Below, piece after piece: positions 28,335 to 28,357 of a stretch of DNA of 44,027 nucleotides. Below the pieces are notes generated by a model that ran no database searches, was not told where the DNA came from, and was given only the letters and a program-made list of their open reading frames with translations. The DNA is from Actinomycetota bacterium (GTDB lineage: Bacteria; Actinomycetota; Thermoleophilia; Solirubrobacterales; Solirubrobacteraceae), in contig JAFDWH010000025.1 in NCBI GenBank assembly GCA_018268595.1, positions 1 to 44,027 of the forward strand, read 5' to 3'. The stretch's first letter is position 1, and every line of letters starts with the position of its first letter. The position numbers were made by a program, and so were the translations under genes.

Positions 28335-28357
28335 ATCTAAGTCAGAGAGACTTAGAT
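28335..28357. promoter_or_regulatory. clpB operator: ATCTAAGTC-N5-GACTTAGAT
   Basis: A perfect inverted repeat with 9-base arms, 14 bases before the clpB ATG and touching the TATGAT box. A related site precedes dnaK with the same ATCTA-N13-TAGAT spacing. It does not match the known HspR box CTTGAGT-N7-ACTCAAG, yet hspR is the next gene upstream. Repressor assignment is inferred. Confidence 0.7.

Follow-up and report, generated by a model that had tools for sequence, protein, structure and literature searches.

The inverted repeats upstream of clpB and dnaK in the window, which here means the whole 44,027-nt stretch of DNA analysed, are very probably the operators of the HspR encoded beside them, and would represent a variant, particular to this lineage, of the HspR-associated inverted repeat (HAIR). 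This reading is drawn from sequence comparison, and agrees with one of two possibilities raised in the first-pass annotation, namely that HspR uses a changed operator here. That possibility is now well supported, as the motif is conserved, is limited to genes of the HspR regulon, and lies next to a single clear HspR.

The genes concerned are all on the minus strand in the order dnaK, grpE, dnaJ, hspR, and clpB. They comprise dnaK (30650..32563; TIGR02350, 983.8 bits), a grpE reading frame with a provisional start (30084..30653; PF01025, 146.5 bits), dnaJ (28924..30069), hspR (28369..28863), and the disaggregase gene clpB (25772..28321; TIGR03346, 1324.6 bits). The hspR product, a MerR-family heat-shock repressor of 164 aa, scores 117 bits against the NCBIfam equivalog NF047375 (cut-off 105), and its gene ends a dnaK-grpE-dnaJ-hspR operon, as is typical of the family. 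It is the only HspR above the cut-off in the genome; no second paralogue reached it, and the other MerR-type proteins all score below. Its AlphaFold2 model places the recognition helix at residues 41-49 and the wing at about residues 55-65, including Leu64. Separately, alignment shows that most HspR proteins of the order end in a short [RK]IP[VI]xR-like motif (28369-28420, minus strand, in the window), which follows a variable linker where the model has low confidence, is conserved, and is possibly a partner-binding tail.

The clpB operator (28335..28357, minus strand) falls in the gap separating the hspR stop codon from clpB, 13 nt 5' of the clpB ATG. The window reads ATCTAAGTCAGAGAGACTTAGAT at this position, and the repeat can be written as perfect 9-bp arms around N5, ATCTAAGTC-N5-GACTTAGAT, or, on the sense strand, as half-sites around N7 on one centre, ATCTAAGT-CTCTCTG-ACTTAGAT, which is the arrangement of HAIR and is conserved 5' of clpB in relatives. 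A sigma-70-like promoter is predicted at 28356..28384 (minus strand; -35 TGGGCA, 17-nt spacer, -10 TATGAT), partly within the 3' end of hspR, and matches 9 of 12 consensus positions, a score with no match in shuffled sequences. The first-pass annotation had put the repeat over the -10 box; the two do overlap, but only by the last 2 bases of TATGAT in the pair 28384-28356, and the rest of the operator spans the presumed start site towards the Shine-Dalgarno sequence.

The dnaK operator (32607..32629, minus strand; ATCTAAGCGTGAGTGTAGTAGAT) is a weaker copy of the clpB repeat, located 43 nt 5' of the dnaK ATG, where it immediately follows a HhH-GPD DNA-repair gene. On the sense strand it reads ATCTACTA-CACTCAC-GCTTAGAT. 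The downstream half GCTTAGAT is intact, and the upstream half overlaps a -10-like hexamer, TACACT (32618..32623, minus strand), which we assign from the sequence [TC]A[CT]A[CA]T found at the equal offset (6-11) in 48 related dnaK operators. A promoter scan found no full promoter at dnaK. Such a hexamer, embedded in the upstream half, would account for the weakness of that half. Re-reading the window gave the same letters and coordinates for both copies as had been reported. Operator and promoter are merged in another way in other lineages of the phylum, including the Coriobacteriia, where the upstream dnaK half-site is ACTTGACA and is fused with a -35-like hexamer (in L142, L145, L146, L148, L154, L155, L192, L210, and others) rather than with the -10 as in Solirubrobacterales.

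Both copies share ATCTA-N13-TAGAT, as noted earlier, and this pattern occurs nowhere else: the two matches in the window (none in shuffles) are also the sole sites in the 3.57-Mb genome, where the reversed control has no match. A relaxed pattern adds a third site in the same genome, 88 nt 5' of lon (L296; LON_substr_bdg), so that the motif is located at the promoters of the dnaK operon, clpB, and lon; a further match (C26:71506), next to an HNH-like reading frame, was discounted as probably fortuitous. In S. coelicolor, dnaK, clpB, and lon are the HspR targets, confirmed by ChIP-on-chip (PMC2687793). The canonical CTTGAGT-N7-ACTCAAG is absent from the genome: its best match has two mismatches, none with up to three is found in the window's contig, and the 18 genomic matches with up to three mismatches do not exceed the 39 of the reversed control.

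Control of dnaK and clpB by HrcA through CIRCE, TTAGCACTC-N9-GAGTGCTAA, would be the other familiar arrangement. HrcA is indeed encoded in the genome, but the window contains no CIRCE with up to three mismatches, in agreement with the first-pass annotation, and CIRCE-type sites are instead found as a tandem pair before groES (L267; G000:C26:385549-385625) and as a single copy near a glycyl-tRNA-synthetase-like gene (L266; G000:C11:153023-153049). Their sequence, TTGGCACTC-N9-GAGTGCCAA, is unrelated to ATCTAAGT. We therefore rejected CIRCE/HrcA as the regulator of dnaK and clpB, a role for which its probability is negligible. The presence of HrcA together with CIRCE at groES and one other locus suggests that two systems divide the chaperones, as in Streptomyces (PMC2687793). 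The CIRCE-type sites of this genome have G/C at the third arm position, which is usually A/T.

Absence of the motif from sister species would have counted against it as an HspR operator. It is present: ATCTnAGT-N7-RCTnAGAT was found in 43 of 61 genomes of the family (reversed control, 0/61), and HspR is encoded in every sampled genome of the order except one, which has a weak match alone. Among 28 loci newly fetched in the family search, 25 have the palindrome 2-56 nt 5' of clpB, and the remaining three have it before a Clp-type ATPase (two, from genomes of the window's genus) or lon (one). Sixteen of the 25 clpB-upstream loci have no hspR match within the flanking sequence fetched (up to 1.5 kb). 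The palindrome thus lies mostly at clpB and often without a nearby hspR, which indicates that the motif follows the regulon rather than the locus. In Solirubrobacterales and near relatives, it is present in 48 of 55 dnaK upstream regions (0.015 expected from shuffles) and in 31 of 51 clpB upstream regions, and similar sites outside the class precede hsp20 (L169, L170), htpG (L168), and dnaK (L172).

Some observations were made along with this search. The Clp-type ATPases preceded by the variant operator in the two genomes of the window's genus (L280, L281) have a cysteine-rich, zinc-finger-like N-terminus in place of Clp_N. Two public records labelled as Bifidobacterium breve and Chlamydiae (L116, CAMCVN010000034.1, and L111, CAJCHW010000037.1, respectively) encode HspR and ClpB of the Solirubrobacterales type, together with, in L116, a DnaK of that type (86% identical); both organism labels look wrong. 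Finally, no HspR was detectable in any of the 11 sampled genomes (1.3-2.1 Mb) of one family of the phylum (f12; G064, G079, G107, G130, G141, and others).

The same data bear on whether the repeats act in the mRNA, as a hairpin by the Shine-Dalgarno sequence that could serve as a thermosensor, or are a product of chance. The clpB repeat does lie near the 5' terminus of the likely transcript and has perfect 9-bp arms. However, what is conserved is the letters and not complementarity alone, the N7 spacing is fixed, and the upstream half at dnaK coincides in part with the -10 and would be left out of the transcript, while chance is excluded by the reversed patterns and shuffles. We consider an mRNA element or chance highly improbable.

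The first-pass annotation had described the operator as unlike the standard HspR box, which applies to its outer bases and not to its frame. Read inwards from its outer end, the HAIR half-site is A-C-T-T-G-A-G-T and the variant A-T-C-T-A-A-G-T, with the same centre and the same N7; T4, A6, G7, and T8 are common to both, giving a core of T[G/A]AGT, and the main difference is in the two bases outside this core (ATCTnAGT versus A[C/G]TTGAGT). Against the strict canonical sequence, clpB matches 8 of 14 positions and dnaK 4 of 14, and we therefore do not file the site as a plain HAIR. The Streptomyces HspR minimal operator is TTGAGY-N7-ACTCAA (PMC2687793). Relatives also contain hybrid operators that pair a canonical half with a changed one, in which clpB has ACTTGAGT with ATCTCAGT (L047) or AGTTGAGT or ACTTGAGT with ATATGAGT (L063, L120), and dnaK has ATCTTAGT with ACTTGAGT (L177).

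As the HAIR frame is kept and hybrids exist, the repeats are most likely a lineage-specific HAIR of the resident HspR and not the site of another repressor. The rival reading, also raised in the first-pass annotation, is that the repeats are bound by a different MerR-type protein, or by some unknown factor, and that HspR uses other sites. In its favour, the repeats depart from the strict HAIR consensus and the genome encodes further MerR-type proteins, all under the HspR cut-off. Yet the motif coincides exactly with the HspR regulon, the genome has no other HspR-type site, and the half-sites grade into canonical HAIR through hybrids and follow the HspR sequence. Another repressor at these genes is accordingly not supported, and appears quite unlikely.

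How the half-sites follow the HspR sequence was examined across the phylum. Exact-pattern counts could not resolve the two half-site types, being too strict for operators that are mostly asymmetric, and several of their matches have no dnaK or clpB nearby and may be due to chance. We used instead a class-neutral scan of dnaK upstream regions, giving 139 genomes with a scorable operator; the scan scored only the letters common to both half-site types, which are thus conserved by construction. Of 93 genomes whose HspR has Leu or Met at residue 64, 85 have TC at half-site positions 2-3, versus 5 of 46 with Arg64 (Fisher P = 1e-21, not corrected for kinship). After thinning to DnaK identity below 85, 80, and 75%, the counts were 27/4 versus 3/32 (P = 5e-11), 12/3 versus 1/22 (P = 2e-6), and 9/1 versus 2/13 (P = 2e-4), respectively. 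Residue 64 has the highest mutual information of 76 HspR columns, closely followed by columns 29 and 49, and the recognition-helix residues H40, Q42, T43, L44, R45, and Y47 show no variation among the genomes compared. On the DnaK tree, residue 64 changes five times; CT or GT half-sites are present in all five Arg64 clades, two of which also have TC, and some Arg64 lineages have ATCTGAGT (L137, L197, L198). An independent-pairs test on this tree was not significant for residue 64 and four other columns, there being too few events.

The AlphaFold2 model of HspR is confident, with block means of at least 90 over residues 31-130, and has residue 64 in the wing strand 63-65, and the nearest solved structures are the GlnR-DNA and other MerR-family complexes. 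GlnR reads bases -8 to -4 with its helix and inserts a wing residue into the minor groove (PMC9249791); this residue, Bs Arg46, aligns with HspR Thr62. The changed bases, -9 and -10, are just outside the helix footprint, consistent with a wing effect. Wing exchanges in GlnR left affinity unchanged (PMC9249791), and a protein-DNA correlation survey of MerR-family metal regulators, which does not mention HspR, found correlated residues mostly in the recognition helix, with a few in the wing (PMC5045206). Because the outer bases follow residue 64 while the recognition helix hardly changes, we propose residue 64 as a candidate specificity switch. It is possible, though we hold this only tentatively, that HspR has switched operators on several occasions within Actinomycetota with the recognition helix untouched, that this single wing residue (Leu/Arg) determines which bases immediately flank the core, and that the hybrids are steps between the two forms.

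A mechanism can be outlined. Each half-site would be occupied by one winged helix-turn-helix of an HspR dimer. Its recognition helix would read the core T[A/G]AGT (-8 to -4, counted from the centre), and its wing would lie over the outer bases -9 to -11, which are ATC in the variant and A[C/G]T in HAIR. So bound, the dimer would extend over the start site and the end of the -10 at clpB. The -10 itself would be covered at dnaK, where the hexamer compromises the upstream half-site. In both cases RNA polymerase would be blocked in normal growth, and repression would end when HspR becomes inactive under heat shock. DnaK serves as the co-repressor of HspR in Streptomyces. With the operator also 5' of lon, HspR would control the classical regulon of dnaK operon, clpB, and lon, and would repress itself within the dnaK operon.

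The repressor and the regulon are the known ones, and what differs is the version of the operator across a large bacterial group, together with a candidate molecular cause. HAIR is usually quoted as a single consensus. In Thermoleophilia and several other actinobacterial lineages, the HspR regulon escapes searches made with that consensus, but can be found with the variant half-site. In the open-access literature, we found no paper on HspR in Thermoleophilia. The group also offers a natural experiment on the co-change of repressor and operator, with a constant recognition helix, changed flanking bases, a candidate wing residue, and intermediate operators.

Among known systems, GlnR/TnrA, the nearest in solved DNA complexes, likewise uses a MerR-type winged helix-turn-helix dimer on half-sites around N7 (TGTNA-N7-TNACA, PMC9249791), but with another sequence and another signal (glutamine synthetase). 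CIRCE/HrcA is also an inverted-repeat chaperone operator and is present in the same genome at groES, but has a different sequence and repressor and is not found at dnaK or clpB here. In Helicobacter pylori, a diverged HAIR-like repeat is read by the local HspR (PMC6102357), as we predict here; its operators, however, extend over 70-80 bp with cooperative dimers, and belong to another phylum and regulon. Streptomyces HspR/HAIR shares the half-sites around N7 on one centre, the core T-x-AGT, the promoters of dnaK, clpB, and lon, and the position of hspR within the dnaK operon. It differs in having CT/GT instead of TC at half-site positions 2-3, G at position 5 where the variant usually has A (or C/G/T), and, in S. 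coelicolor, three HAIR sites at dnaK (PMC6102357) instead of one site per promoter.
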